From the IMG/VR virus record IMGVR_UViG_3300048927_000297, positions 1 to 25,180 of that record: a stretch of DNA of 25,180 nucleotides. One strand, 5' to 3'. The notes under the pieces are model-generated. The model was not told the origin of the DNA. It did not search any database and was given only the letters and a program-made list of their open reading frames with translations. Of the stretch, positions 599 through 24,175 are shown in pieces; positions within the stretch are counted from its first letter, which is position 1, and each line of letters opens with the position of its first letter. The position numbers and the translations under genes were made by a program. Source of the DNA: a virus.

Positions 599-3094
599 TT
601 ACCAGCCGGTGGCTTCCCAGTAGCTGCCGCCGCTGTCCTGGCCGCAGGTGAAACCGATGTTATTGATAATTTGCGCCGTACCAAAGTTGTCATTGAACGT
701 CCCGCCGCCGCCATTGATGGCGGTCACCTGAACGTTGACGCAAGTGCTCGGGAAGGGAATGGGGAAATTCACCGTTGACCAGCCGCGACTCCCTTTGTTG
801 ACGACGCCCCACTGCTTAATCATTCCCGTGTCACCGCATCGCCACCAGCCGCCGCCGAGGTTGGCGGTGTTGGTATTGACCGGCTGCCGGTTATTGGGGC
901 TGAAAACGCGCTGCCCCATCTCGTTCACGGTGCCGGACGTATTGCTGTCGCCGTTGCCGGACAGGGTCATCTCGCCGGTTTGTACCGTATTGCCCTGGTT
1001 GACGATGCGAAATTTGAACCCGCCCACGCCGCCGCCTTTGTTGTTCACAAAGTTGGATTCGCCCTGGCCGCCGCTTTCGTTCCAGCCTAAATACGTCCCC
1101 TGTCCGTCGCCGGGCTGTGGGATGGTTATCGCCCGGAGATAATTCGCCGTGACGCGACCGTTGACATCACCGCCCGCGCGGGGAAATGCGCCCACATTAT
1201 CCGCATTCAGCCCGATATCCTGGGTGCCATCGAACGCCACACCGGCAATCTTGCGGGCAGTGGCGAGTTTGGTCGCGGCAACGGCGGTGCCATTTGCAGG
1301 AAGTGCGCCCACGTTTGCCGCGCTAAGGTTGATATCCTGCGTGCCATCAAAGGCCACACCGGCAATTTTGCGGGCGGTGGCGAGTTTGGTCGCCGCGACT
1401 GCCGTCCCGCCCGCCGGTAACGCGCCGACGTCTGCCGGTGTCGGTTTGTTCGCCTGGCAGTAAATTTCATTCCAGGCCGTCCAGGGACCATCGACGCCGT
1501 TCCACGCCCCCGACGCGCCCCGCGTAAACTGTCGTCCGTTGTTGTTAAAGGCAATCTGCTGCGTCGCATTCGGTCCCCAGGTCACGAAAATCACGCCGAC
1601 AAACCCGTTCATCGGGTAGCCTTTGTCCGTGGTCGCGGCGGCGGCACCGGGCACGCCGTAATGCCCGAACATGGCCGTACCATGCAGCGCGTTGGGGGAG
1701 TCCGTCGCGGTTAGGTTCGTGCGGATTTTAAAGGCCGTCGCAATTTCATCCGCCAGCGCCTTTTCACTGGCGGCGCTTTGCGTGGCCGTCCACGCGCCCA
1801 CGTCGGCGGCGGTGGGTTTGTTATTCGCGCTGTACGTGGGCACCCACTCTTTCCAGGGACCATCCACGCCGTTCCAGTCAGCGGACAATCCGCGATTCCA
1901 GATATTGCCGGTGAACGTGATGTACATCTGCTGGCACCCGTAGGCGCTCGGCGTGACGTACAGCGTGCCTGCGATGCCTTGCGGATAGTGCAGCGCCGCC
2001 GTGGCGTTGGCATTTTTAGGCTGCGCGTACAGGGCTGCGCTTCCGGCTCCGCTGGCAAAGCCCAGGGTATTGATATCCGTGGTGGTCAGGATGGCCGACG
2101 GCACCGTGACGGAATTCACCGCGCTGGCTTGCACCCAGTCACGCCAGGGTCCGTCCGCGCCATTCCAGGACGCATTCAGCGCCCGCGTCCACACCATGCC
2201 GGTGTTTTGCACGGTGTAACGCTGCAGCACGCCGCCCGTCCAGGACGCGGGGATAACCTCCAGCACGCCCGCCGCCTGTGAACCGGCCGGATAGCCATTG
2301 GCGACCGTGGCATTCGCGCCGGTGCTCTGCACGTAAACCCCGATGTTTGCCAGATTAAACGTGTTGATATTCGCGGTGCCGAGCACGGCGGACGCGACCG
2401 GCAGCGCCCCCACGTCCGACGCCGTCAGGGTTACGTCAGCGCTCAGCGCTTTATTGTTCACCTTGCGGGTGGACGGTACGCGGGTGTTGGCATTGTCGTT
2501 TGCGGTCTTCACCGCTTTCGGCGTCGCCGCCAGCGTCTCGCTGGTACTGCTGACCGAGCTGTTAAGCTGCACAAAACCCTTTGCCGTCAGCGTGCCGTCG
2601 GGGTGGTTGCGGGATTTTTCATGTGCGGCCAGCAGGTCATTCACATATTCTTCGGTCGCCATAATCACCGAGTCGTCGATCAGCAGGCTAATGGCCTCGG
2701 TGTTACTGACGGCAATCACCATACGCAACGTTTGCGTGCGGCCGGAACCTTCCGCCAGCGTCGGCTTGTAGGTGTCCGCCATGTTACACACGGCAATCAG
2801 CGTGCCGTCGTCGGCAAACAGCCCCATTTCACGCATCCAGAAACCGCCGACGCTCGCAGAAATCACCGCCTCGGCAATGACCCAGTTGCCGTGAGTCGGA
2901 TCGAGCTTTAAGGAGTTGAGCGGCGTGCGGTACACCTCTTTAACCAGTTTTGTCTGCGTGGCAACCGGCGTGGTCGCCTTGCCGTTGCCGTCACCGACGG
3001 CAAGCTGCGTAATGTTGATGTCAGTCCCCGCCGCAATGGCGGCCGCAATGCGCGACTGGCCGAGCGTGGTGACAACGGATTTAAATGTGCTCAT
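599..3094 (-). CDS. H: Tail fibre protein, gpH-like
   Basis: An 831-residue receptor-binding fibre, longer than P2 gpH (about 669). Residues 1-160 form the conserved baseplate-attachment part (STFKSVVTTLGQSRIAAAI, then GGFWMREMGLFADDGTLIAV). A linker follows with HPDGTLTAKGFVQLNS. The shaft has three modules resembling pyocin knob domains, marked by WNGADGPWRDW, WNGVDGPWKEW and WNGVDGPWTAW near residues 315, 410 and 535. Two 39-residue repeats follow near 553-631. The C-terminus contains GGGWWRCGDTGMIKQWG and ends GGSYWEATGW, like the gp53-type fibre tips of enterobacterial phages. The mosaic build suggests tip exchange; the receptor cannot be inferred. Confidence 0.92.
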   Translation of the reverse strand: MSTFKSVVTTLGQSRIAAAIAAGTDINITQLAVGDGNGKATTPVATQTKLVKEVYRTPLNSLKLDPTHGNWVIAEAVISASVGGFWMREMGLFADDGTLIAVCNMADTYKPTLAEGSGRTQTLRMVIAVSNTEAISLLIDDSVIMATEEYVNDLLAAHEKSRNHPDGTLTAKGFVQLNSSVSSTSETLAATPKAVKTANDNANTRVPSTRKVNNKALSADVTLTASDVGALPVASAVLGTANINTFNLANIGVYVQSTGANATVANGYPAGSQAAGVLEVIPASWTGGVLQRYTVQNTGMVWTRALNASWNGADGPWRDWVQASAVNSVTVPSAILTTTDINTLGFASGAGSAALYAQPKNANATAALHYPQGIAGTLYVTPSAYGCQQMYITFTGNIWNRGLSADWNGVDGPWKEWVPTYSANNKPTAADVGAWTATQSAASEKALADEIATAFKIRTNLTATDSPNALHGTAMFGHYGVPGAAAATTDKGYPMNGFVGVIFVTWGPNATQQIAFNNNGRQFTRGASGAWNGVDGPWTAWNEIYCQANKPTPADVGALPAGGTAVAATKLATARKIAGVAFDGTQDINLSAANVGALPANGTAVAATKLATARKIAGVAFDGTQDIGLNADNVGAFPRAGGDVNGRVTANYLRAITIPQPGDGQGTYLGWNESGGQGESNFVNNKGGGVGGFKFRIVNQGNTVQTGEMTLSGNGDSNTSGTVNEMGQRVFSPNNRQPVNTNTANLGGGWWRCGDTGMIKQWGVVNKGSRGWSTVNFPIPFPSTCVNVQVTAINGGGGTFNDNFGTAQIINNIGFTCGQDSGGSYWEATGW
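1214..1440 (-). repeat. 117-bp direct repeat inside the tail fibre gene
   Basis: Two near-identical units begin at 1214 and 1331 (both start GATATCCTG on the plus strand). The period is 117 bp, or 39 codons, so the frame is kept. The repeated protein segment begins GTAVAATKLATARKIAGVAF. Further partial units with VGALP extend on both sides. This is a shaft repeat that could expand or contract by recombination. Confidence 0.85.
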
Positions 3095-5732: not shown

Positions 5733-6002
5733 GCGGGGATCACTAACTAAGGAGTATTAGCCAAAACTTGAGCTAACACATTTCGTAGGTAGAACATCAT
5801 TAAATCTGACATATTAGTTTGAGTAAAAGCGGATATTCACCATATCCAGCCAGGCTGCATTGAGTAAAAAACTGATTAAAATTATTACCACTGACTAGTC
5901 GAATCCGATTTCAAAGTCAGACTTGTGAAAATATCATGCCTGTTAAACGAATTTCGGGGTATACCCCCTTATAGCAGCTATTAATTTTAAATATCAATAA
6001 AA
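5733..6002. other. AT-rich stretch with no gene
   Basis: No convincing gene. It holds a perfect 12-base palindrome GGGGTATACCCC (5956-5967), a TAAAAGCGGATATT block near 5827, and an AAGTCAGACTT block near 5912 related to motifs in other junctions of this prophage. It marks the left edge of the accessory insertion between V and S. Confidence 0.5.
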
Positions 6003-6197
6003 TCATTTTCTTTGAGAATTAAATATTCCAGTTAAAAACACTTTGAAAGTATTTATAGTTAATTTAATGTAGTTATTGCTAATAACTATATCGTCATTTT
6101 TAAATAGACTTAACCCTTCGGTTGTTTCTATGTAATTTTTAATTTTTTTCGAAATCAGGATGTTTTTAATTAGATAAATGACCATCACTATTAACAA
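6003..6197 (-). CDS. Possible small membrane-anchored protein
   Basis: A 64-residue AT-rich ORF. The N-terminus is hydrophobic (LIVMVIYLIKNILI), giving one likely membrane segment, followed by a lysine- and asparagine-rich tail. The frame opens with TTG at 6197, which has AAGGA 6 bases upstream; an internal ATG at 6185 lacks a well-placed site. No family recognised. It could be a real moron product or a chance frame in AT-rich DNA. Confidence 0.4.
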   Translation of the reverse strand: MLIVMVIYLIKNILISKKIKNYIETTEGLSLFKNDDIVISNNYIKLTINTFKVFLTGIFNSQRK

Positions 6198-6278
6198 GAA
6201 TATTCCTTATTTTGTTTATGAGCAGAATGTTCGGCCACTCTTCACTGTTATCGTTGAATGCTGAATAATAATGGGCAA

Positions 6279-6485
6279 TTACTCTTGTATCTCATGATAT
6301 TCACTGTAAATTTCAGCAGAATAGTATTTCCAGTCTTCATGGTCAATTTTTTCGGTTACTCTCTTCATTGTCTCATCCAAATTATCCTCGTAAAGCTTTA
6401 AAGATTTATCAAGTATTGATGTTGAAATGACTAATTTACCCATGAGATCTAATGATTTTCTCTCTAAATATCTAAATCTTTCCAT
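6279..6485 (-). CDS. Small acidic protein of unknown function
   Basis: A 68-residue ORF starting with ATG preceded by AGGA at 6 bases spacing. The predicted protein is helical and rich in acidic and lysine residues (SILDKSLKLYEDNLDETMKR). No family recognised. It sits in the AT-rich accessory insertion. The good ribosome site makes it the most likely of the three small ORFs here. Confidence 0.5.
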   Translation of the reverse strand: MERFRYLERKSLDLMGKLVISTSILDKSLKLYEDNLDETMKRVTEKIDHEDWKYYSAEIYSEYHEIQE

Positions 6486-6672
6486 ACAGTATCCTATGAT
6501 TAGGTGAAATTTTTATTTTTAATGTTGGGTGTTGTTTTTCAGTAAGCGTTGAGAATTTTAAGCTTCGTTTAAATGTATTAACTACTATTGCGAGGTGATG
6601 ATGATCATCATTGGTTATTAATTTTAAAGAATTAAACGGCCATTTGGAAGATGAAAATTCTGAAAGTCTCAA
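6472..6672 (-). CDS. Doubtful small ORF
   Basis: A 66-residue frame that opens with TTG at 6672, with only a weak AGAAG upstream. It overlaps the next gene by 14 bases, as coupled genes would. The sequence (SSKWPFNSLKLITNDDHHHL) is not recognised. It may simply be the leader of the following gene. Confidence 0.25.
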   Translation of the reverse strand: MRLSEFSSSKWPFNSLKLITNDDHHHLAIVVNTFKRSLKFSTLTEKQHPTLKIKISPNHRILYGKI

Positions 6673-6967
6673 AAGTCTTCTATTGGCACTTAACGACTAC
6701 GAGCAGGAGCAGCTATGAGCGAGGAGTGGACGTTTGCATTAAAGGGAGTTTAATCCGTATAGCGGAAGCGCTCTAAAAGCGATCAGCCCGATGTAAATTG
6801 AGACTAACATATCTCTTTGAAATATTTAAACTTTCCCTTTAATCTCATGTTTATATATAATTTCACTCATTTAATTGAGATAGCCTCACATAGAGTTCAG
6901 TAACGCATGCGCGAGGCATTTTATGCAAAGAACGACCTTCTTTCAGAAGGATCGCAGCTAGGTAGTG
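6673..6967. other. Non-coding stretch within the accessory insertion
   Basis: No gene seen. It contains the block GAGGAGTGGACGTTTGC near 6720, related to motifs elsewhere in the accessory DNA, and the hairpin at 6936-6950 below the end of the 200-residue gene. Confidence 0.5.
6936..6950 (-). terminator. Weak terminator candidate after the 200-residue gene
   Basis: The arms CCTTCT and AGAAGG surround a 3-base loop, followed on the minus strand by TCGTTCTTTG. It lies about 20 bases past the stop at 6968. The T-run is poor. Confidence 0.35.
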
Positions 6968-7570
6968 TTATGAAATGGCTAAGAGGGCATTTAGTTCATG
7001 ACTACTCAGTATCTCGTGAGCCATTTGTCGAATAGCTACAAAATGTGCTTCAGTAATTGGCTGCTGAACTGATTTATCTCCCTTGGTATAAGTGAAGTAA
7101 CCAATTACTCCGTCAGTAGATAGCGCCTCATATTCTTTTGAAAGCTTGGCATCAACATGTGCTCCACCGTCCTGATTTGCTGCTGACAGAACTATTTTTC
7201 TTCGAGATAAGCGGGTTTGCGGACCAAGCACGAACACGATTTGGTCCCACCATTGACTCACTGGGATCAAATTCTCAGTGGAGTTCAAATCGAGCGAAGC
7301 AAAATACTTACTACCACCATTACCTAATTGTATTGTACCAAGGCCAAAATACATGACTGCATCGGGCGGAGCACCCTGAGTGGTACTAAGCAAATTGATC
7401 GTCGTTGCGTTCAAATGTTTTAGAAGAGATGTGGAAGCCTTTGTGTTATGCACCAAAACTCGAATTATTGTCGCCATGCGAATCGCTTCGTCAGTTGCGC
7501 CCCCATCATAGGCTTCGCAGGATCGTGCAAGGAACGTAAGTTGTCTTCTGAGATGGGTTCGAAAATCCAT
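6968..7570 (-). CDS. Accessory protein of unknown function, 200 residues
   Basis: A clear gene: the ATG at 7570 is preceded by AAAGGTG at good spacing, and an upstream in-frame TTG is less likely. The N-terminal third is helical (DFRTHLRRQLTFLARSCEAY, then DEAIRMATIIRVLVHNT and STSLLKHLN). The rest appears to be a mixed beta domain with QWWDQIVFV and GVIGYFTYTKGDKS. It resembles scattered conserved hypothetical proteins, but I recognise no named family or catalytic motif. It lies alone in the insertion between S and V, where P2 relatives carry cargo such as orf30. A defence or conversion role is only an inference from position. Confidence 0.8.
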   Translation of the reverse strand: MDFRTHLRRQLTFLARSCEAYDGGATDEAIRMATIIRVLVHNTKASTSLLKHLNATTINLLSTTQGAPPDAVMYFGLGTIQLGNGGSKYFASLDLNSTENLIPVSQWWDQIVFVLGPQTRLSRRKIVLSAANQDGGAHVDAKLSKEYEALSTDGVIGYFTYTKGDKSVQQPITEAHFVAIRQMAHEILSSHELNALLAIS

Positions 7571-7935
7571 TTGTGCACCTTTCAATTTAGTGAGCGGAGA
7601 AATTCTATGTAATCATAAGTTCTATTACTTCTATGGAATGAAGGTGAGAAATTTCATAGATTTTGAACTCAACCAACAAAAGGGATTGAATGATAGTGTC
7701 AGATGCGTAAGCAAAAAGAAAGCTTCAAATAAGGGTTTTTGGGGATTTGTTACGTATGCTGAAATTTACTAATAAAGATCGTAAGTAACCAATGGTTTTA
7801 GTTCCTTGTAAGTATTCCAGCAAACAAGCCCATCCGCCTTTATATATCAGACCTAACGTGCGGTGCCATTTGCAATTTCTGTTTCTGGCTCAGAGCTGCC
7901 TGTCAGATTAGGTTTGGCTCTGTGCCACACCTGTG
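7571..7935. other. Intergenic stretch upstream of the 200-residue gene
   Basis: No convincing gene; a 60-residue plus-strand frame at 7590-7772 lacks a ribosome site. The stretch should hold the promoter of the minus-strand gene. It also contains TAACCAATGGTT at 7786-7797, which recurs after Q, and most of the 90-bp repeat at 7868-7956. Confidence 0.5.
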
Positions 7936-15390: not shown

Positions 15391-16422
15391 ATGAGTAAGC
15401 GCAAATTCCGCAAGGCGACACAAACAACCGTCACAGCAGCCGCACGGCAGACAAGCGGCGCGGAGGCGTTCAGCTTTGGCGACCCGACGCCGGTGTTAGA
15501 CCGCCGTGAAATCCTGGATTACATCGAATGCTCGGGGAACGGCCAGTGGTATGAGCCGCCGGTCAGCTTTGACGGACTGGCACGCACGCTGCGGGCAGCG
15601 GTGCATCACAGTTCATCGCTGTATGTGAAACGTAATATCCTGGCCTCAACCTTCGTCCCGCACCCGTTACTATCACAGCAGGAATTCAGCCGGTTTGCCC
15701 TAGATTACCTGGTATTCGGAAATTCGTTTTTAGAAGTGATCCGCAACCAGCTCGGCGACGCCGTGGTGATGAAAACCGTGCCTGCAAAATATGCCCGCCG
15801 AGGGGTTGAGGAGAATACTTACTGGTTTGTGCAGCAATGGAAGGAGGCCCATCAGTTCGAAACAGGCAGCGTATTTCATCTGATTGAGCCGGACATTAAT
15901 CAGGAGCTGTACGGCCTGCCGGAATATCTCAGCGCCCTGAACTCAGCCTGGCTGAATGAGGCCGCTACGCTGTTCCGCCGCAAGTACTACCAGAACGGCG
16001 CGCACGCCGGATACATCCTGTACATGACTGACGCGGCACAGAGCAGCAGTGATATTGACCAGATGCGTAAGGCGATGCGTGACACAAAAGGCCTGGGCAA
16101 TTTCCGCAACCTGTTCATGTACGCGCCGAACGGCAAACCGGACGGGATCAAAATTCTGCCGTTAAGTGAAGTCGCAACCAAAGACGATTTCTTCAATATC
16201 AAGAAAGCCAGCCAGAACGATTTGCTGTGCGCGCACCGTGTGCCGCCTCAGATGATGGGCATTATTCCGGAGAACAGCGGGGGCTTTGGTGATTCAGTGA
16301 AAGCCTCGCAGGTGTTTGTTCGAAATGAGCTGACACCGCTGCAGGAACGGTTTAAAGAATTAAATGCGTGGTTTGGGGGGGAGGTGATCAAGTTTACTTC
16401 TTACGAACTGACACCAGAATAA
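15391..16422 (+). CDS. Q: Portal protein, gpQ-like
   Basis: A 343-residue portal (P2 gpQ 344), the dodecameric ring at the capsid vertex. Family segments include ILDYIECSGNGQWYEPPVSF, HHSSSLYVKRNILASTFVPH, DYLVFGNSFLEVIRNQLGDA and HRVPPQMMGIIPENSGGFGD. It is coupled to P by a 1-base gap. Its end marks the border of the accessory region. Confidence 0.96.
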   Translation: MSKRKFRKATQTTVTAAARQTSGAEAFSFGDPTPVLDRREILDYIECSGNGQWYEPPVSFDGLARTLRAAVHHSSSLYVKRNILASTFVPHPLLSQQEFSRFALDYLVFGNSFLEVIRNQLGDAVVMKTVPAKYARRGVEENTYWFVQQWKEAHQFETGSVFHLIEPDINQELYGLPEYLSALNSAWLNEAATLFRRKYYQNGAHAGYILYMTDAAQSSSDIDQMRKAMRDTKGLGNFRNLFMYAPNGKPDGIKILPLSEVATKDDFFNIKKASQNDLLCAHRVPPQMMGIIPENSGGFGDSVKASQVFVRNELTPLQERFKELNAWFGGEVIKFTSYELTPE

Positions 16423-16455
16423 GAAGCGGACATAACGCTAAAATATGGAAGTAAT

Positions 16456-16494
16456 ATAACCAATGGTTGATGTTTTTTGGGCACCATTGGTTAT
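16456..16494. terminator. Long inverted repeat between Q and the HEPN-like gene
   Basis: Perfect 12-base arms ATAACCAATGGT and ACCATTGGTTAT flank a 15-base loop. It sits between convergent gene ends (Q and the minus-strand gene), the place for a two-way terminator, but lacks a clean T-run. Part of the arm recurs at 7786-7797. Confidence 0.45.
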
Positions 16495-16508
16495 TGAGAA
16501 TCTCGTAT

Positions 16509-17354
16509 TCAATACTCAATGAATTGGATATCATTAAAAATAATGTCTAAACACTGCTTACCCGTTTGAGTTATTTTTCCACTTTCATCTAGCACAGCCT
16601 CTCCCATAGGACGCTCATCGTAATAACCACTAAACTTATACCCTGGATTATTTTCATCATGTTCAATTTCTTTAATTATCATTAATTTCAGATCGTCATC
16701 ATTCAATTTAGGATTTAACTTCTTAATTGTAAGACATAGTTTGATTAATTTTACTATCCTACCAGGTGATAATTTAAAAGTATTTTTATTCGCCTCAGCG
16801 TAATCATATTCGCAATCATAATTTTCGCACTGGAACTTATAAGAAGCCCTACCAAATTCTTTATCATTGCATGGAGCTCCAACCACCGCCTCTCTTAATA
16901 AAGTTAAGAAGCCACTATTAAATAAAATATTAGATTCTGAAAAAGAAACGCAAATATTATTAGATACACCTTCCTCATTGTAAATGTAATGATACTCATA
17001 AGGTATATGACCTTCATGAACATCATTACACCTAAAAACTTTGTAAATCATTTCTTGTAGGGCTTCTTTATCAGGGGTTAATTTTATTAATTCCTTGTAA
17101 TAAGCATTCTCACCTAAAACGAATCCCAGTATTTCAGGTATCCTCACTCCAAGAAATCTTTTATACCTTTCCGCATTTCCCATATCACCTTTAGATTTTC
17201 CATCATATAGTGACTTGGTGCCCTTAGGGAAAACCAATATCGCTGAAGCATCTATAGCAGTTAACAAAAGGAGAAGTGCAGATTCATATCGACCATTTTT
17301 TATCAAAAAATCCGAATCCTCAATTCTCTTTGCAATATAACCATGATTACCCAT
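16509..17354 (-). CDS. HEPN-like accessory protein, possible RNase
   Basis: A 281-residue AT-rich gene. The ATG at 17354 has a strong AGGAGG just upstream. The N-terminal half looks like a HEPN fold: a long helix GRYESALLLLLTAIDASAIL (about 21-40), then VFRCNDVHEGH with R108 and H113 in the R-x4-H arrangement of HEPN RNases. The C-terminal half is not recognised (KFQCENYDCEYDYAEANKNT, then LSPGRIVKLIKLCLTIKKLN). It is alone, convergent with Q, and differs in base composition from the phage genes. A toxin or abortive-infection RNase is the likely role, but no antitoxin neighbour is seen. Confidence 0.8.
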   Translation of the reverse strand: MGNHGYIAKRIEDSDFLIKNGRYESALLLLLTAIDASAILVFPKGTKSLYDGKSKGDMGNAERYKRFLGVRIPEILGFVLGENAYYKELIKLTPDKEALQEMIYKVFRCNDVHEGHIPYEYHYIYNEEGVSNNICVSFSESNILFNSGFLTLLREAVVGAPCNDKEFGRASYKFQCENYDCEYDYAEANKNTFKLSPGRIVKLIKLCLTIKKLNPKLNDDDLKLMIIKEIEHDENNPGYKFSGYYDERPMGEAVLDESGKITQTGKQCLDIIFNDIQFIEY

Positions 17355-17972
17355 AACCCCTCCTATCAAGCATAATTAATATGAAATATACCATTTTGAT
17401 TTGAAACAATCCCGCCATTCCATTTTTCAGTTTAGCTGTCATGTCCTTGATATAATGAAAGTCAGTCCGATCGCAATATTTTCTATTTGGATTTTTGATG
17501 AGTTTATTTATCTCAACGCTCAACCAAAAAATTAGGTAATTAAAAAATTAAGTGCCAATTCACTCGCACCATACCGGTATGCTTTTGAGGTTCATTGAGT
17601 GATGCCCGATTCAACCCCGATTATTTTTTAAACTCCTAGTGACATACTCCCAATTGATTAAAATAGAATAATGCTAACCAGATCTGCTTCTGGCACTCAA
17701 CTATCTTTCAGACCTAATTACTTCCAGACTAAAAAAGTTTTCAGACTTGTTATAAGCTCATGTATTTTAGGGAAGATTTTATTTCATTACTTACCCTATT
17801 GGCATAAGTCCTTAGCCAATAGTTGCATTCGAATATGTACGTCGATCCTTATATGCCGTTAATCATTCTGTATTATCTATGCTACGCAGAAATGTTTCTG
17901 TCAAGAACCGTCGTAAAAAAAAGTCCCGCGCTGCTGAGTGGTTCATTTTGACGTTCCACACCCTGGAGCGCG

Positions 17973-17991
17973 CAATGTTACCCGCCTGCCC
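17973..17991 (-). other. Candidate cos cleavage site
   Basis: The minus-strand 19-mer GGGCAGGCGGGTAACATTG resembles, from memory, the P2 cohesive end GGCGAGGCGGGGAAAGCAC, and has the orientation expected from the gene order. The next bases, CGCGCT and a GGTG-containing stretch, also resemble what I recall of the P2 left end. The match is partial (about 11 of 19). Confidence 0.4.
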
Positions 17992-18154
17992 GCTTCTGAC
18001 TTAACTCACCGTTTTTAATGCATGACTAAGATCGCCGCAAAGTAAGGCGAAAGGGGCGATCAGGTGTTTTTTGATCCTCTAGGTGGCATGCAAAACCATG
18101 CGCATCATGCATGCATGGCTCAGCCATACGACCGCGCTCGATACACATCATTTG

Positions 18155-18245
18155 TATTAGCTCAGACTTGACCTCACACAACTACGGCACAGAGCCAAAA
18201 CGAATCTGACAGGCAGCCCTGTGCCAGAAGCAGACATTGCTAAAT
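18155..18245 (-). repeat. Copy B of a ~90-bp repeat (inverted relative to 7868-7956)
   Basis: The reverse complement matches 7868-7956 at about 85% by eye, with one small gap. It lies between the cos candidate and the IS903 remnant. Unlike copy A it is not attached to an S gene. Confidence 0.85.
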
Positions 18246-18276
18246 CTGCTCTTTATTAAACATTAGGGTTCAGGTC

Positions 18277-18505
18277 AATTACAATCGCCGCACGATAGCG
18301 GAAACGGCGATGCACAGAGTAAAACCGTTGTTTGGTGGCTCTCAGATGCTGCGTGACTACGATGGGCAGGTCGCAGAGGCTCTGGCCATGGTGTGCGCAC
18401 TGAACAAAATGACAAAAGCAGCCATGCCTAAAAGCGTGCGTATTGCCTGAAAACCCGGCCTGCTACAGAGACGCTCGTCCGGAGTCTGATTTATTCAACA
18501 ATGCC
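18277..18505 (+). mobile_element. 3' remnant of an IS903-type (IS5 family) insertion sequence
   Basis: Codons 18277-18450 encode the last 57 residues of an IS903-type transposase (NYNRRTIAETAMHRVKPLFG, then LRDYDGQVAEALAMV and ALNKMTKAAMPKSVRIA), close to the known IS903 C-terminus. The right inverted repeat follows at 18488-18505: GATTTATTCAACAATGCC differs from the IS903 end at one position. The left end and most of the transposase are missing, so it cannot move on its own. Its right edge abuts the replication-gene fragment. Confidence 0.9.
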
Positions 18506-18744
18506 AATTTCTACCCCCACTTGATGAAAGTGAAGTCATCGGGATAGCTAAAATAATTTCTAAATGTAAACACAAGATACTTTCTTTTAATAGTTCCTCA
18601 GAGTATGTTAAATCGACCCACTTTTCTGAAATTAAAGTTGTAAGAGTAAAGAAAAGTAAGGGGGGTAGACCATCGTTAGGAAACCCTTGGACAGAAATGA
18701 ATATTAGCAGTTCTAAATACTTTAGGATGAAAAAGGAAAAAAGC
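18505..18744 (+). pseudogene. 3' fragment of a primase/replication-protein gene
   Basis: In frame from just after the IS end the translation reads LPPLDESEVIGIAKIISKCK, then FSEIKVVRVKKSKGGRPSLG and NPWTEMNISSSKYFRMKKEK. The first part resembles the PriCT helical domain of plasmid and phage primase/Rep proteins; the last resembles their C-terminal tail (GRPS..PW...GIS..YYR.KK). The rest was lost at the IS junction. No stop codon separates this frame from the DUF262 start at 18745. Confidence 0.55.
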
Positions 18745-19809
18745 ATGAGTGACGTAGAAGATCAGATAAAAGAATTAAAAAAAGAAGTTGATTTTGACAC
18801 AAGAGACTTCACGATAGAAATTATCGTACAGAAATACAATAAACGTCTAGATGAAGGTGAGAACGAGATTTTTGTTCCTGACTATCAAAGGGATTTTGTA
18901 TGGGATGAAGAACGCCAATCAAAAATGATTGAATCTATAATTCTCGGATTGCCCATTCCGTCTATTTTTGTTGCTGAAGATGTAAGCGGTAGACTTGAAA
19001 TAGTTGATGGTTCTCAAAGAATAAGAACGTTGAGTGCCTTTATTAATGAAGAGTTAATACTTTCCGAGTTGGGCAAAGTAACATCATTGAATGGTAAGAG
19101 GTTTAGTGATCTAGATGAGTCAAGGAAAAGGAAATTTAATAATACAGCAATTAGTATGATTGTTCTATCCGAAGATACCACCCCTGACATGAGGAACGAT
19201 CTTTTCGAAAGGATTAACAAAGGCAGTGATATCCTTAGAGGGATGGAGGTTAGGAAAGGTATTTACACAGGGGAATTTACTGACTTTATTTATAAGGAAT
19301 GCTCTGTGAATAGTAATTTTAGATCGCTAGTCCACCTAGCTAGCTCTGTGAAAAACAGACAGGAATATGAAGAGCTTATACTGAGATTCTTTGCAATTGG
19401 GGAAAAATATCCTAAGTTCCATCCTTTTTCTAGGAATGTAGGCACTGCGCTAGATGATTACATAAAAGATAAAAACACTTCATTTACGCCAGAAGAAAAA
19501 GAAATAATGTCTTGTTCATTTAATAGAATGGTTAACTTTGTTAAAAATAACTTTCTTTTTGGATTTTCAAAAGATAATGGAAAGGATACATCTAGGATGT
19601 TTTTTGAGGCTATATCTGTTGGTGTTCATCTAGCTTTGGAAGAAAACCCAGAATTAATAATTAAAGAGAAAATAGATGCAAGGAATTTATTGAGAGATCC
19701 AGCTTTCAAAAACTTCACCATGGGGAAATATAAAACGCACTCAAATGAATCATTGAAAGGAAGGATCGATTTTATTAAAAATAAAGTCTTGAATATGGGT
19801 TCTTTATAG
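18745..19809 (+). CDS. DUF262 protein, partner of a HEPN protein
   Basis: A 354-residue protein with the DUF262 (GmrSD N-terminal, ParB/Srx-like) fold. Motifs are VPDYQRDFVW (44-53), IVDGSQRIRTL (86-96, the DGxQR nucleotide-binding signature) and LFERINKGSDIL (153-164). The C-terminal half is helical, and no DUF1524 HNH nuclease follows as in GmrSD. I chose the ATG at 18745 because AAGGA precedes it; the frame is also open upstream into the replication-gene fragment, with an ATG at 18697. One base separates it from the HEPN gene. DUF262 proteins usually act as NTP-dependent sensors or nuclease regulators in anti-phage systems. Confidence 0.88.
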   Translation: MSDVEDQIKELKKEVDFDTRDFTIEIIVQKYNKRLDEGENEIFVPDYQRDFVWDEERQSKMIESIILGLPIPSIFVAEDVSGRLEIVDGSQRIRTLSAFINEELILSELGKVTSLNGKRFSDLDESRKRKFNNTAISMIVLSEDTTPDMRNDLFERINKGSDILRGMEVRKGIYTGEFTDFIYKECSVNSNFRSLVHLASSVKNRQEYEELILRFFAIGEKYPKFHPFSRNVGTALDDYIKDKNTSFTPEEKEIMSCSFNRMVNFVKNNFLFGFSKDNGKDTSRMFFEAISVGVHLALEENPELIIKEKIDARNLLRDPAFKNFTMGKYKTHSNESLKGRIDFIKNKVLNMGSL

Positions 19810-19810
19810 A

Positions 19811-20431
19811 ATGAATAGTGTCATTAAAAATGATTTTATATCTAGGTGCTCTGACATTAGGTGTCTACATGAACATTTAATTAATGTTAGTAACTGTAGT
19901 GGGACGGTTAAAATATCTTCAATTATAAAATCATCCATTTTTATGGCTTTATATAATAACGTTGAGGCCACGTTTTACTCTTTATTTGAGCGTATACATA
20001 GTGAAGCAAGTAAAATCCCATTCTCTCTGCTAGATGTAAAGCTGGCAACTATATTTAAAAATTTTTATTCTGATGGTGAAAATGCATCTAATGATATTTT
20101 ACACGAGCTTAAATTTCCAACTCTGAAAATTTATATCAAGAAGAAAAAGATATTTTCTGGTAATCTTGATGTAAGAAGAGCAATGGCTTTGTTTAAAGTC
20201 TATGGAATAGAATTTGATCCTAGTTTCAGTAAAAAAAAGTCAACAAGCCTAGTGATTATTAAGAATAAAAGAAATGCCATTGCACATGGTGAGCTTTCTT
20301 TTCCTGATGCTGGGAAATCTTTCAGCTATCAGAGAATCCTAGACCTGATAAATGATTCTGAAGGTATCTTATCTGATTTCATAGATCAGGCTGAATTATA
20401 TCTTATCAGGTTAAAAAGTAAGGTTCATTGA
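19811..20431 (+). CDS. HEPN-like nuclease (MAE_28990/MAE_18760 type)
   Basis: A 206-residue helical protein. R154 and H159 in IKNKRNAIAHGELSF form the R-x4-H motif of HEPN ribonucleases, with the polar N after R as in active members. The N-terminal helix SIFMALYNNVEATFYSLFER resembles the MAE_28990/MAE_18760 family. The start lies 1 base after the DUF262 stop with a weak ribosome site, so translation is probably coupled. A terminator follows. I infer a two-gene unit in which the HEPN protein is the RNA-cutting effector and the DUF262 protein the sensor or inhibitor. Confidence 0.88.
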   Translation: MNSVIKNDFISRCSDIRCLHEHLINVSNCSGTVKISSIIKSSIFMALYNNVEATFYSLFERIHSEASKIPFSLLDVKLATIFKNFYSDGENASNDILHELKFPTLKIYIKKKKIFSGNLDVRRAMALFKVYGIEFDPSFSKKKSTSLVIIKNKRNAIAHGELSFPDAGKSFSYQRILDLINDSEGILSDFIDQAELYLIRLKSKVH

Positions 20432-20453
20432 GACTAAACAACCTATATCAGAT

Positions 20454-20483
20454 AAAAGCCCTCTCTAGAAGAGGGCTTTTTTT
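20454..20483 (+). terminator. Intrinsic terminator of the DUF262-HEPN operon
   Basis: The arms AAAAGCCCTCT and AGAGGGCTTTT flank a 5-base loop and run into a T-tract. It is 22 bases past the HEPN stop. Confidence 0.92.
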
Positions 20484-20862
20484 CAGTTGAACTGTTCCCA
20501 TTGATTAACACAAAGTAGTGTTAGTGATTGGCTCTGGGTGATAACAATCACGAACTTCTGCTTTTCGCTCACAGCGGACCTAACGAACCTCCCACAGGTT
20601 TGCTTCGTGCCAAAAGCGGACGTTCTAGACATTGTGTCGTGCTGAGTATAAGAATTACGTTTAAGTATCAGCCATACAACTCTCTTGCAAAAAAAATGCT
20701 TGATTCTCAGATATACCGATGTATTCTTGAAAAACGGAAGAGCGCTATCGTGCCCCCGTTTTATATCACATCCTTTAGCCCATAATTTTGAGCATACGGA
20801 CGAGAGATAGCCTTAGTTCCCGGGTCAAACCGGTTTATGTATGCTTAGTTATGGAGCTTTAT
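20484..20862. other. Intergenic stretch before the 272-residue gene
   Basis: No convincing gene; the 85-residue frame at 20528-20785 has no ribosome site and an unlikely composition. Two blocks, ACAGCGGACCTAACG near 20570 and CCAAAAGCGGACGTTC near 20609, belong to a motif scattered through the accessory regions. The promoter of the next gene should lie here. Confidence 0.5.
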
Positions 20863-21681
20863 ATGAAATCTAATCTTGCTCGTGACCCTATTACCATGCT
20901 GGCAGCTGTTCTCCATGATATGATTTTTCCCCACGCTGATATTTTGACCGGAAAGGAACTGGATGACAACTCAAGAATGAGGGTGATCAAAAATACCGTC
21001 TGCTATGCATTTGGGTTTAAGAGTGCTTCTGATTTGGCTAATTATATTAACCTGACCTCTCAAAAGAAACACTTTGAATTTTTCAAAGATGAATTATGCG
21101 CCAAACTGGACATACTTAAAGACAAACTCGAAGAGAGGTTTGGAAAGACTGTAAACCTCAATATTTTCAAGAGTGAATCTATCATTCTGAAAGCATCCCG
21201 TCATCCCAGCGGTCGTCATAACTTTGAATATCAAGGGGATGATCGTAGGGCGTTTCCTGTGCAATTACAGGGTTTAATGATAGGTAATACTCATTATCGG
21301 GAATTTTACCAAGCATCTTTGAAATTGTACCATTTTCTTTTGTTAGCTGGGTTCAATGTTGAATTCCCCGGACTCATAAATCAGGATGAGTTGTACGGCG
21401 TATTAATTCCAATCGATAGTAAAACTCGCATTGTATTGCGTGATTGGATTTATAGGCGTTACGCTCCTGAGGATGATGAGAAAATTCGTCAGGATATTGA
21501 TAAAAAAATATTCGAGGCTATAAAATCAATCGGGCTTGTTTTTCAGGCTAACCTTTATGGTGAGTTTGGAAAAACAATAATACCCATGAAGATTATGGAT
21601 GACGCGCAAGGTATCATGATTCCTGATGTTTATTTCACAAGAAAATCAATTCAAGACCTACAATTGTATATTTACCGGTAG
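20863..21681 (+). CDS. Accessory protein of unknown function, 272 residues
   Basis: The ATG at 20863 has GGAG at 6 bases spacing; upstream in-frame ATGs at 20788 and 20851 fit less well. The protein begins MKSNLARDPITMLAAVLHDM, with a helical region around CYAFGFKSASDLANYINLTS, a lysine-rich helix (KLDILKDKLEERFGKTVNLN), then YREFYQASLKLYHFLLLAGF and a basic IVLRDWIYRRYAPEDDEKIR. No signal peptide, membrane segment or recognised catalytic motif. It faces A and is the last cargo gene, in the position of P2 tin/old, which exclude other phages. A defence role is inferred from position only. Confidence 0.8.
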   Translation: MKSNLARDPITMLAAVLHDMIFPHADILTGKELDDNSRMRVIKNTVCYAFGFKSASDLANYINLTSQKKHFEFFKDELCAKLDILKDKLEERFGKTVNLNIFKSESIILKASRHPSGRHNFEYQGDDRRAFPVQLQGLMIGNTHYREFYQASLKLYHFLLLAGFNVEFPGLINQDELYGVLIPIDSKTRIVLRDWIYRRYAPEDDEKIRQDIDKKIFEAIKSIGLVFQANLYGEFGKTIIPMKIMDDAQGIMIPDVYFTRKSIQDLQLYIYR

Positions 21682-21698
21682 GGATAAGTAAATTGAAA

Positions 21699-21735
21699 AA
21701 ATAAGAAATCGATTTAAAACCCCGGTTTCTTATTT
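21699..21735. terminator. Possible two-way terminator
   Basis: Perfect 10-base arms AAATAAGAAA and TTTCTTATTT flank a 17-base spacer, 17 bases past the 272-residue gene. It is AT-rich with a long loop, so its strength is uncertain. Confidence 0.4.
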
Positions 21736-21838
21736 ACTCCCATCCGGATTTATTTGGTGCACCACAAAACCGTTGACCTGCTCCCTGATAACCCACTCAG
21801 AAGGCTGTTAGCAGTGTCCGTTGATCGCTCAATCCAGA

Positions 21839-21888
21839 CTGTCAGATTTGATGATGTTTTACCTCGGATCAAGTCTGAAATAATACAC
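21839..21888 (+). repeat. Degenerate third copy of the 90-bp repeat
   Basis: It shares CTGTCAGATT and TCAAGTCTGA followed by TAATACA with copies A and B, in the same order but about 11 bases closer together. It lies immediately past the end of gene A. Confidence 0.45.
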
Positions 21889-21889
21889 A

Positions 21890-24175
21890 TCATTCAAACT
21901 CAGCCCAATCCGGCATCGGTTCAAAACTCATAACCAGATTACCAAAGCTGATTTCCGCTCCACGGCTCAGCGCTTCCAATTCCCAGCGTTCAGCCGTTAT
22001 GTTGTGTTTCATCAATTCGCTTTCTATTTCCGGCAATCGCGCCCGTTCTTCTCCCGTCAATCTTGCCGATGGGGCAACATCACGGCCTTTTGTCGGATCG
22101 AAACTGCGCTGTGCACTGCTGACTCTCGGCGTTTCCTCGCGTATACGTGCCACAACAGCCTTCATGGCCGCAGTGTCGGCCCAGTCAATTACCATTTGGT
22201 TGGCAGAAATGAACGCTGTAGCGGCGCTCCCAGCCTGGCTATCTCGCCCATTTGCGGCGGCTTTCTTTCCACCTAACCCACAGTTATTGACAGGACTCCG
22301 AGGCGCGCCGGAGGCGCTTATTAAATTCAAAGGATGAACGGCAACTTCAACAGCCTTGGCGACAATGCGCCATTTTGTTGTGCGGGTTTCGTGGATGAGG
22401 TCAGTACCAAGATGAGGCGCATAAACGCCGATGACTTTCTGGATCTCCTCATCGTACTCGTTCAACTCATCAATCACTTGGCGGGCGGTTCTTACCGTTT
22501 GCTCGTCGCGGGGGACATTCGCCCCACCCTGCGCAGAAATATATGCGGCAAAATCACCACTGTCTGCCGCTGCTCTTGCAGCTTCAACAAGTTCGTCAAA
22601 CTCGCTAGCGATGCTCACGCCACGCGGTAATCTGCGCAGCTCACGATAGGCACCCATCGTGGGTACGCCAATAGATTTAAATTGCGGGATACGCCACGTA
22701 GAAGCCCATGCAGTAACCGCAGCGGCGGTTTCTGATAGCGGCTTGCCCGTATCGTTATCCAGCTCACCATCGAGCGCGTAACCATCAATATTTTTAGCGA
22801 TGTATTTGGCGATATAACCTGCCGCACCGCCTTTGTTCATATGCTTGCACTGAAAGCGTTGCTTTTCCGCGCCGCGCTCTTGACCGTCTTCTTTCAGGGC
22901 ATAACGGCGCATGATATCTACAGCCGCCTGACGCTGCGTGCGCTCGCAAAACAGCATCATGTGCCAGTGAGGTGTAGCATCATGGTGCGGCTCCACAACT
23001 CGCATACCGTAAACCCTGACACCGGCATCTTTAAACGCCGTGCGCATTTTGCTCCAGATTTTTACCAGATAACGCTGACCGTCTTTGGGTGAAAATGCCA
23101 ACTCATCCCACTTGTGGTTAAAATTAACTTGGCGTTTTTCTTTCTTCCCGACCTGACGTGTTGGATGATATTTGGAAGGCGTGGTGATGGTAATAAACAT
23201 GCCGACATGCCCAGCACTGGCGGCATATTTTTCAATCCCGGCAATCGTGCTCATCAGCTCCATACGACGGATTTCAGGATTAGAGATACTTCCCATCACC
23301 TTATCAATGAGATCTATGCGCTCGCCGGTTTCGATGTTCTCTAAATCGCAGGATTTGAGATATTCCATATTCGCTAAACGACGAGCCCGGACATCACGAA
23401 TGGCCTGCTTGCTGGCATAACCAGACTTCTGAAGACTCACCTCCCCTACAGCGATCAGAAGAGATTCGCGCCACTGCGTGCGCTGCGCTTTTAACTGCCG
23501 GATCCACCACTCGTCATTCACCAGCCGCGCGACACTGGAGAATGCAGCGCGCATATCCAGTTTGCGTTTGCGATATTTCTGCCAGTGCATAGGCGTGATA
23601 TTAAAAACGCGGGCAGCACCGGCAACCTCACCATAAATTTTTTGCTGTGCGCTGTCGGTGAATAGCTTGGCTTGAACTCCATTGTGCTGACTTAGAAGCT
23701 GATCGCTCTGCTCTTCATATTCGGTGAACAACCGGGATGAAATTTGCATAGCGAGACGTTTCAGCGCTTTGTCATTCATACCCGCTAGCTGGCGGTAGCT
23801 CTCGGCTTCATCGGTAAATATTTCGTTAGTTCGACCATTTAAAATCAGCTCATATTTAGCCTGTACGACTTCGATACGTGGCCAAATGCGTGGCATAAAA
23901 ACGTTGATGAGATAGCGGTGAGCAGCCAATAATCCCGTGCTTTCTTTTAGGTATTCATACCGGCCATAGAAAATGCCACTTAGAAAAAATGGCAGCGCGT
24001 GGATTTTACGTAAGGCATCTTGCCCCTGATGGAATTCATCACGGGTAAGAGGTCTTTCTTTTGAGATTGCTGGGCGGGGAGCATTCCAAGGGTATGCGCC
24101 AACAAAAAGAGGTTTGTTGGCAGTATCGAATTTTGGAGGAGGAGATGGGGCAATGCGCCCCCGAACATAATTCAT
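21890..24175 (-). CDS. A: Replication initiator, P2 gpA-like
   Basis: A 761-residue rolling-circle initiator, exactly the length of P2 gpA. It nicks the origin and joins covalently to the 5' end through a tyrosine. The segment PHWHMMLFC (402-410) is the HUH-type metal site. Y454 and Y458 in AAGYIAKYIAKNIDGY are the active-site pair, equivalent to P2 Y450/Y454. Other near-exact P2 stretches are ERPLTRDEFHQGQ, VMGSISNPEIRRMELM and TWRIPQFKSIGVPTMGAYRE. The ATG aligns with P2, but no strong Shine-Dalgarno is present, so it may depend on read-through translation or an upstream leader. Confidence 0.97.
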   Translation of the reverse strand: MNYVRGRIAPSPPPKFDTANKPLFVGAYPWNAPRPAISKERPLTRDEFHQGQDALRKIHALPFFLSGIFYGRYEYLKESTGLLAAHRYLINVFMPRIWPRIEVVQAKYELILNGRTNEIFTDEAESYRQLAGMNDKALKRLAMQISSRLFTEYEEQSDQLLSQHNGVQAKLFTDSAQQKIYGEVAGAARVFNITPMHWQKYRKRKLDMRAAFSSVARLVNDEWWIRQLKAQRTQWRESLLIAVGEVSLQKSGYASKQAIRDVRARRLANMEYLKSCDLENIETGERIDLIDKVMGSISNPEIRRMELMSTIAGIEKYAASAGHVGMFITITTPSKYHPTRQVGKKEKRQVNFNHKWDELAFSPKDGQRYLVKIWSKMRTAFKDAGVRVYGMRVVEPHHDATPHWHMMLFCERTQRQAAVDIMRRYALKEDGQERGAEKQRFQCKHMNKGGAAGYIAKYIAKNIDGYALDGELDNDTGKPLSETAAAVTAWASTWRIPQFKSIGVPTMGAYRELRRLPRGVSIASEFDELVEAARAAADSGDFAAYISAQGGANVPRDEQTVRTARQVIDELNEYDEEIQKVIGVYAPHLGTDLIHETRTTKWRIVAKAVEVAVHPLNLISASGAPRSPVNNCGLGGKKAAANGRDSQAGSAATAFISANQMVIDWADTAAMKAVVARIREETPRVSSAQRSFDPTKGRDVAPSARLTGEERARLPEIESELMKHNITAERWELEALSRGAEISFGNLVMSFEPMPDWAEFE
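22287..22307 (-). other. ori: Replication origin nick region inside gene A
   Basis: The minus strand reads CGCGCCTCGGAGTCCTGTCA followed by A. As I recall it, this is the P2 ori sequence cut by gpA. It lies in the 3' part of A, as in P2, over codons for the conserved APRSPVNNCG. Single-stranded displacement would start here. Confidence 0.85.

Follow-up and report, generated by a model that had tools for sequence, protein, structure and literature searches.

The DUF262–HEPN locus and its proteins

The window, by which we mean the whole stretch of 25,180 bases analysed here, comes from an IMG/VR virus record of a P2-like phage, and Pfam recognised in it the P2-family major capsid, terminase, baseplate J, tail fibre, portal and replication gene A. 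Between the portal gene and gene A lies a low-GC cargo region containing a DUF262–HEPN gene pair, with a GC content over the pair of about 0.29-0.36 compared with 0.55-0.65 in the structural-gene stretches. This interval is named as a P2 defence hotspot in PMC9519451. The features discussed below are as follows.

15391-16422, portal gene (Pfam)
18490-18744, + strand, C-terminal remnant of a plasmid replication protein (Rep), in frame and running up to the DUF262 start (tblastn)
18745-19809, + strand, DUF262 gene (protein P0002), 354 aa, Pfam GmrSD_N/DUF262 PF03235 (E 1.4e-28), no DUF1524
19811-20431, + strand, HEPN gene (protein P0003), 206 aa, MAE_28990/RiboL-PSP type, with R154-x4-H159
20429-20483, + strand, constant 3' border of the plasmid slot, containing the terminator hairpin
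20454-20480, terminator hairpin, 3' of the HEPN gene
21890-24175, replication gene A (Pfam)

The original prediction, made from the sequence letters, had described two genes 1 base apart with their own terminator and an AT-rich composition, located before gene A in a cargo region. All of this was confirmed, the DUF262 TAG ending at 19809 and the next ATG beginning at 19811, with the portal gene and gene A as the flanks. The DUF262 frame is open upstream from 18490, and the ATG at 18745 is supported as the start by the N-termini of homologues and by the junctions in two related loci (L010 and L017). No promoter stands out in 16000-22000, where 14 sigma-70-like sites were found against 19.5 expected by shuffling.

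Other low-GC sequence lies nearby. A 297-aa ORF adjoining the pair (20788-21681, + strand) may be a further cargo gene; it is without a Pfam match above cut-off, a PADLOC match or a strong PHROG match, and tblastn gave 0 matches in 50,697 phage records. Beside the portal is a 286-aa ORF (16509-17369, − strand), a probable cargo gene with no significant match in Pfam, PADLOC and other family scans. The cargo block is bracketed by imperfect inverted repeats (18147-18243 and 21808-21893; 25 nt at 84% and 41 nt at 71%), possibly by chance or as a regulatory element. On the tail-fibre side of the structural genes, a second low-GC island (5750-7900, GC about 0.28-0.44) holds a 205-aa ORF (6968-7585, − strand) without a Pfam or PADLOC match; a second P2 defence hotspot, fun, is named in PMC9519451.

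The motifs attributed to the first protein are present, VPDYQRDFVW at residues 44-53 and DGSQR within VDGSQR at residues 87-92, and DUF1524/GmrSD_C is absent as had been stated, with no Pfam match at E ≤ 1. The motif [IVL]DGxQR is kept in 147 of the 148 DUF262 proteins sampled. The best structure match of an AF2 model made with a 90-row alignment (pLDDT 92.3, pTM 0.73) is BrxU (Z 9.6), with ParB at Z 8.3 and SspE at Z 7.9, and DndI matches over almost the whole length at a lower score (Z 5.6). Residues 17-346 of the model lie on BrxU 1-412 (283 residues) with an rmsd of 13, so the parts are probably oriented differently in the two proteins. Residue 346 of 354 falls at BrxU residue 412, short of D474/H475, given as the BrxU nuclease residues in PMC8565348. 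Judged by sequence and model, the protein is a ParB/Srx fold with an NTPase motif and a helical region matching BrxU ahead of its nuclease, the HNH being missing, and no nuclease motif was identified in it. On the structure alignment P0002 resembles the part of GmrSD/BrxU that precedes the HNH nuclease, with the HEPN as a separate gene, and it is predicted to be an NTP-dependent sensor or regulator.

The partner, P0003, matches Pfam HEPN_MAE_28990 (PF18737, E 6.7e-11) and also passes the cut-off of HEPN_RiboL-PSP (PF18735, E 4.7e-8), so that with the DUF262 match at E 1.4e-28 both predicted families are upheld. R154 and H159 were correctly called and are intact within KNKRNAIAHGE. Together with G160 they are invariant in the 90 aligned HEPN rows (90/90). 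Of 141 HEPN rows, 139 have the R and H of the R-x4-H, and two (L088, L134) show nothing but gaps at these columns. The AF2 model is all helical (pLDDT 94.0, 90-row alignment), and its top structure matches are HEPN toxins and YutE (HepT of MntA-HepT, SO_3166, HEPN-MNT toxins; Z 9.1-8.2), with Csm6 also among the matches (Z 7.7). A Z score near 9 is modest for a helical protein, and since unrelated helical proteins score only slightly lower the fold call leans also on sequence and motif. Among sequences of solved structures, the HEPN profile found no more than a weak match to a ribosomal protein (E 0.02). P0003 is a predicted RNase effector.

A search of defence-system models had been proposed for both proteins, and it succeeded for one of them. 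In PADLOC, P0002 is matched best by NsnA (E 3.7e-58, nearly full length) and below it by PD-T4-2_A (E 2.8e-37, residues 41-342 on 52-355 of 363); P0003 has no match at E ≤ 1, and the effector is thus covered by no defence model. There was also no PADLOC match for the other two cargo ORFs, P0004 and P0005. P0003 found no match in the phage collection by tblastn, and a search for its close relatives in viral contigs by peptide patterns gave 28 stretches with 0 confirmed.

Pairing of the two genes and the methylase split

The loci sampled comprise the best 80 of 229 confirmed genome relatives, 67 viral loci and other fetched loci, and in 149 of 164 sources DUF262 was matched over 250 model positions or more. 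A HEPN gene lies directly downstream on the same strand in 142 of these 149 loci, or 141 of 148 without the window's own copy, in a survey that favours closer relatives, since only the best 80 genome relatives were kept, and favours pairs, since the alignment used for the search consisted of nine DUF262 proteins that are paired with HEPN. The sample includes near-copies (e.g., L002 and L097 from one contig), and rows of one family are not independent events. The co-occurrence that the original prediction proposed to look for is nevertheless evident. Seven loci have no model-detected HEPN downstream, namely L014, which is a Menshen-type exception, L016, where the next gene is a RiboL-PSP HEPN beyond reach of the HEPN model used, and L015, L149, L150, L152 and L154.

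Searching in the reverse direction with a HEPN profile gave 8 matches in 369 genomes of one class, all with DUF262 upstream (8/8), at least two of the eight genomes being already in the sampled set. Among 392 genomes of one family there were six HEPN places in five genomes, five of which adjoin a DUF262 match; the sixth, in a genome for which no DUF262 match is listed, is partial and interrupted by a stop codon. A wider DUF262 group was sampled at 20 loci, of which L189 and L190 belong to genomes that had been included before. Here the gene after DUF262 is an R-x4-H candidate in 15, a larger protein without the motif in 3, and was not found in 2. Nine of these 15 partners and that of L016 were scanned and 10/10 match a Pfam HEPN family, which makes DUF262 with a separate HEPN a common theme beyond the window's family. 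Genes for RiboL-PSP-type HEPN proteins follow those of DUF262-only proteins in L179, L181, L183, L184, L186, L188, L191, L193, L196 and L016. The DNA of the window's pair matched 29 of 5,426 E. coli genomes, with no single match reaching 80% coverage of the query. By gene order, the pair stays linked throughout the bacteria and phages that were sampled.

A third gene separates the pairs into two groups. Loci were labelled using our own HMM of five linked C5 cytosine methylases, and this 5-sequence HMM (E ≤ 1e-4) found no linked C5 cytosine methylase in the 25,180-base window. When 126 thinned DUF262 sequences were placed in a tree, the window fell into a 48-row clade (SH-aLRT 97), within which its pair sits in a 9-row clade. 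In the 48-row clade no methylase accompanies any of the 31 rows that have enough flank; another 16 rows have too little, and a single row has its match 4.6 kb away. Of the remaining 71 HEPN-paired rows, 68 carry a methylase at the locus and 3 have too little flank. Counting HEPN-paired rows with enough flank, the methylase is thus present in 68/68 outside the window's clade vs 0/31 inside, a few of the 68 matches being weak (E about 1e-8 for L041 and L143). The seven outgroup rows, which are without this HEPN type, have no methylase match either. The methylase gene is convergent just downstream of the HEPN gene in 43 rows, upstream on the same strand in 22 and downstream on the same strand in 3. 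Methylase-linked relatives occupy the P2 hotspot interval in two E. coli P2 prophages (L008, L009), and another lies beside gene A of phage P2_4B2 (L003), at the end of the record. The L003 C5 methylase (2337-3041), beside an intact pair, matches the first half of the Pfam model only, which suggests that it is truncated.

With the observed labels the DUF262 tree needs two changes, placed by the topology at the outgroup and at the window's clade. Loss of the methylase is the simpler direction because a methylase is linked in each of the nine rows that branch between the outgroup and the two large groups; the root is uncertain, given long branches and an outgroup that no single branch separates from the rest. 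A second tree of 90 rows recovered the split (support 100/96, all 200 bootstrap trees), which tests the split and not the labels, since the groups were defined from the first tree. The HEPN tree was expected to mirror this split and did not recover it cleanly, requiring 5 changes for the methylase grouping, 2 of them forced by well-supported branches. This argues against strict co-inheritance, and effectors may have been exchanged.

A gene replacing the methylase was sought among 878 neighbour ORFs of at least 90 aa from the 48 methylase-free loci by all-against-all clustering. One large family consists of antisense shadow ORFs (26 loci) and the others occur in at most 5 loci, the largest clearly outside the pair in 4. 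No replacement methylase or antitoxin was found by this clustering, which a gene below 90 aa or a highly divergent one would escape. By these sequence labels, the window's clade lacks the C5 cytosine methylase that its HEPN-paired relatives have at the locus.

The two branches also differ within DUF262. The columns that separate them best are concentrated at window residues 325-335, and further ones lie at 283-286, 133 and 151, some column differences being expected between any two clades. At this C-terminal loop methylase-linked proteins read roughly S-D-[AG]-[SA]-N-S and most methylase-free ones G-x-Y-x-T-H. Six of 42 methylase-free rows have no extra residue 329 and keep asparagine 332 and arginine 286 (fractions 0.14). 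Three of these six (L053, L062, L078) represent an intermediate loop state, in which P-R-x-R-F is kept at the first loop and the second-loop aspartate is absent. Given the clustering of the separating columns, the loop is a candidate DNA-reading or partner-contact element.

Plasmid sequences flanking the pair

The 85-residue stretch that runs in frame up to the DUF262 start matches, over most of its length, the C-termini of plasmid replication proteins. A tblastn search at E ≤ 0.01 matched it in 303 of 72,556 plasmid records, the best at 53% identity, and among the 20 matches listed most are annotated as replication initiation protein. It is 43-53% identical to the Rep ends of L010-L013 and L017, and the three of these Reps that were scanned, in L010, L012 and L013, have the Pfam domains Replicase and PriCT_1; Pfam made no call on the Rep fragment alone. 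We take the remnant to be of ColE2 type. A Rep-tail match also lies upstream of the DUF262 gene in L016, an E. coli plasmid, and L004 has a short, weak one (22 residues, E 0.007); none was found in L002, the window's nearest relative.

On the other side of the pair the border is 92.7% identical over 55 bp to L010, L013 and L017 and 92% identical over 51-63 bp to L011 and L012, four of these being small-plasmid records and one a small contig, and in all five its counterpart comes after the cargo gene. Searched as a 70-base query (20421-20490) at E ≤ 1e-6, it was matched in 140 of 72,556 plasmid records and in 0 of 50,697 phage records. No viral contig contained an exact 26-base part of it, in a scan that may omit the window's own record. 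The whole order of Rep, DUF262, HEPN and then the same border occurs in a Klebsiella plasmid of 5,568 bp (L010), where a mobilisation gene is next, and in an Intestinirhabdus contig of 5,587 bp (L017), which is probably a plasmid. In L013 the same slot holds GmrSD and in L012 a DNA methylase, and AIPR-family genes lie at the border in other plasmids, which gives this slot of ColE2-type plasmids the look of a general site for defence cargo.

The block in the phage is thus, by its matches on both sides, flanked by parts of a plasmid cargo slot. Transfer was most likely from plasmid to phage, since Rep is incomplete in the phage and a whole gene in the plasmids, and the pair was probably captured from the cargo slot of a small ColE2-type plasmid. 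The Rep tail ahead of the pair, together with the methylase as a third gene in the HEPN-paired relatives with enough flank outside the window's clade, goes beyond what had been noticed from the sequence before. The scar suggests a defence cassette moving from the cargo slot of a small mobilizable plasmid into that of a phage.

Proposed function and comparison with known systems

The original prediction proposed a unit of a sensor and an RNA-cutting effector; its families, pairing and defence-type location are borne out, and the mechanism is one that we infer. The pair is probably a defence unit. At a probability of roughly 55%, we favour a two-gene anti-phage alarm in the P2 defence hotspot, in which an NTP-driven DUF262 sensor would release an RNA-cutting HEPN toxin. 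The two proteins would form a complex, within which DUF262 would bind NTP and inspect DNA. On meeting invader DNA it would hydrolyse or exchange the NTP and free a HEPN dimer, which would then cut RNA so that growth stops before the phage finishes (abortive infection). In BrxU, nucleotide binding alters the assembly of the DUF262 protein (PMC8565348). In the methylase-linked relatives, the methylase would label DNA as self; the sensor of the window's branch may have been re-tuned to a foreign feature, such as modified cytosine or a replication or packaging intermediate, and a self mark would then be unnecessary.

The anti-phage alarm is favoured by the domain matches, the BrxU alignment that stops short of the nuclease and the HEPN fold matches, by the pairing (141/148 and 8/8) and the conserved R-x4-H and [IVL]DGxQR, and by the methylase split, the loop differences, the P2 hotspot and the native T4 defence of the related PD-T4-2. 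Against it stand an effector without a defence model, a HEPN tree without a clean split, the modest HEPN Z scores and the length of the record, 25,180 bases, beyond which the phage or its host may carry a methylase. We would extend this reading only tentatively, at somewhat less than even odds, to an ancestor with three genes, in which methylated cytosines in self DNA kept in check a HEPN RNase under DUF262 control. The methylase would have been lost once, and the surviving branch, including the window, would have re-shaped its C-terminal loop so as to detect foreign DNA with no self mark required. It would have spread among bacteria, in part by way of the ColE2-type plasmid cargo slot, and from there have reached a P2 phage.

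An adjacent gene pair with the putative regulator first, found on small plasmids as well as phages, could also be a toxin-antitoxin addiction module, with DUF262 as antitoxin and HEPN as toxin, kept for plasmid or prophage stabilisation and with defence secondary or absent. The HEPN structural neighbours are indeed HepT/MNT-type toxins of such modules, and no third gene is widely recurrent in the window's clade. We nonetheless consider this unlikely, as a large NTPase-type DUF262 with motif residues kept family-wide exceeds what an antitoxin requires, a methylase is retained in all sister-branch rows with enough flank, which suits DNA surveillance, and GmrSD, methylase and AIPR genes are also found in the plasmid slots that carry the pair. 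The relationship of DUF262 to BrxU and GmrSD, which act on modified cytosines, and the ParB/Srx proteins with nicking activity cited in PMC12839542 would suit a type IV-like restriction of modified DNA, with the cutting or nicking done by DUF262 itself and HEPN as a reserve toxin. That BrxU's DNA-cutting HNH domain is absent and no nuclease motif was identified in DUF262 makes this quite improbable. It is more doubtful still that the pair is decaying or silent cargo, a passenger without current function; it does lie behind a truncated Rep remnant with no promoter standing out, but both frames, the invariant residues and the terminator are intact. The two branches, with the same effector type, with and without a methylase and differing in a short loop, offer a natural comparison for what DUF262 senses, and make the question of self-recognition testable.

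With GmrSD, BrxU and SspE, P0002 has in common the DUF262 ParB/Srx fold with D-G-x-Q-R, but GmrSD and BrxU have a DUF1524 HNH nuclease, which P0002 is without, the effector being a separate HEPN protein. The PADLOC Nsn system (NsnA/NsnB/NsnC) is presumably Menshen. The window shares its NsnA-type DUF262 (P0002, E 3.7e-58), but in the Menshen-like L014 an NsnB-type DUF3696 protein and an NsnC-type protein come next, whereas the window has a HEPN without an Nsn match. Dazbog is tabled in PMC10952713 as containing DUF262 without DUF1524, as in the window; its DzbB weakly resembles the HEPN partner in L179 (E 0.001), and no Dzb model is among the PADLOC matches of P0002 or P0003.

Operons described in Anantharaman et al. 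2013 (PMC3710099) combine a MAE_28990-type HEPN with ParB nuclease and DNA methylase genes, or a RiboL-PSP HEPN with ParB. The former shares with the window the HEPN family and the adjacent ParB/DUF262 gene, and fits the methylase-linked group of the DUF262 tree, from which the window's clade differs in having no linked methylase and a different DUF262 C-terminal loop. PD-T4-2, tabled under DUF262 and HEPN PF18735 in the review PMC10952713, is like the window pair a DUF262 without DUF1524, with a HEPN to which P0003 may correspond, and its deletion from E. coli ECOR65 raises T4 plating (PMC9519451). P0002 matches PD-T4-2_A (E 2.8e-37) and P0003 passes the PF18735 cut-off, but the best Pfam family of P0003 is PF18737 and it has no PADLOC match, a comparison made through models and descriptions. 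Among 10 other DUF262-linked HEPN proteins, 0 match a PD-T4-2_B model, if the PADLOC library includes one. The original prediction's remark that such pairs are known stands with the pairing seen elsewhere, and the combination has a precedent in PD-T4-2, a tested system (PMC10952713, PMC9519451). The DUF262–HEPN combination is already known; of the methylase-free branch with its loop signature we found no description in the open-licence literature on these systems, and we know of none of the scar of a probable plasmid-to-phage capture.
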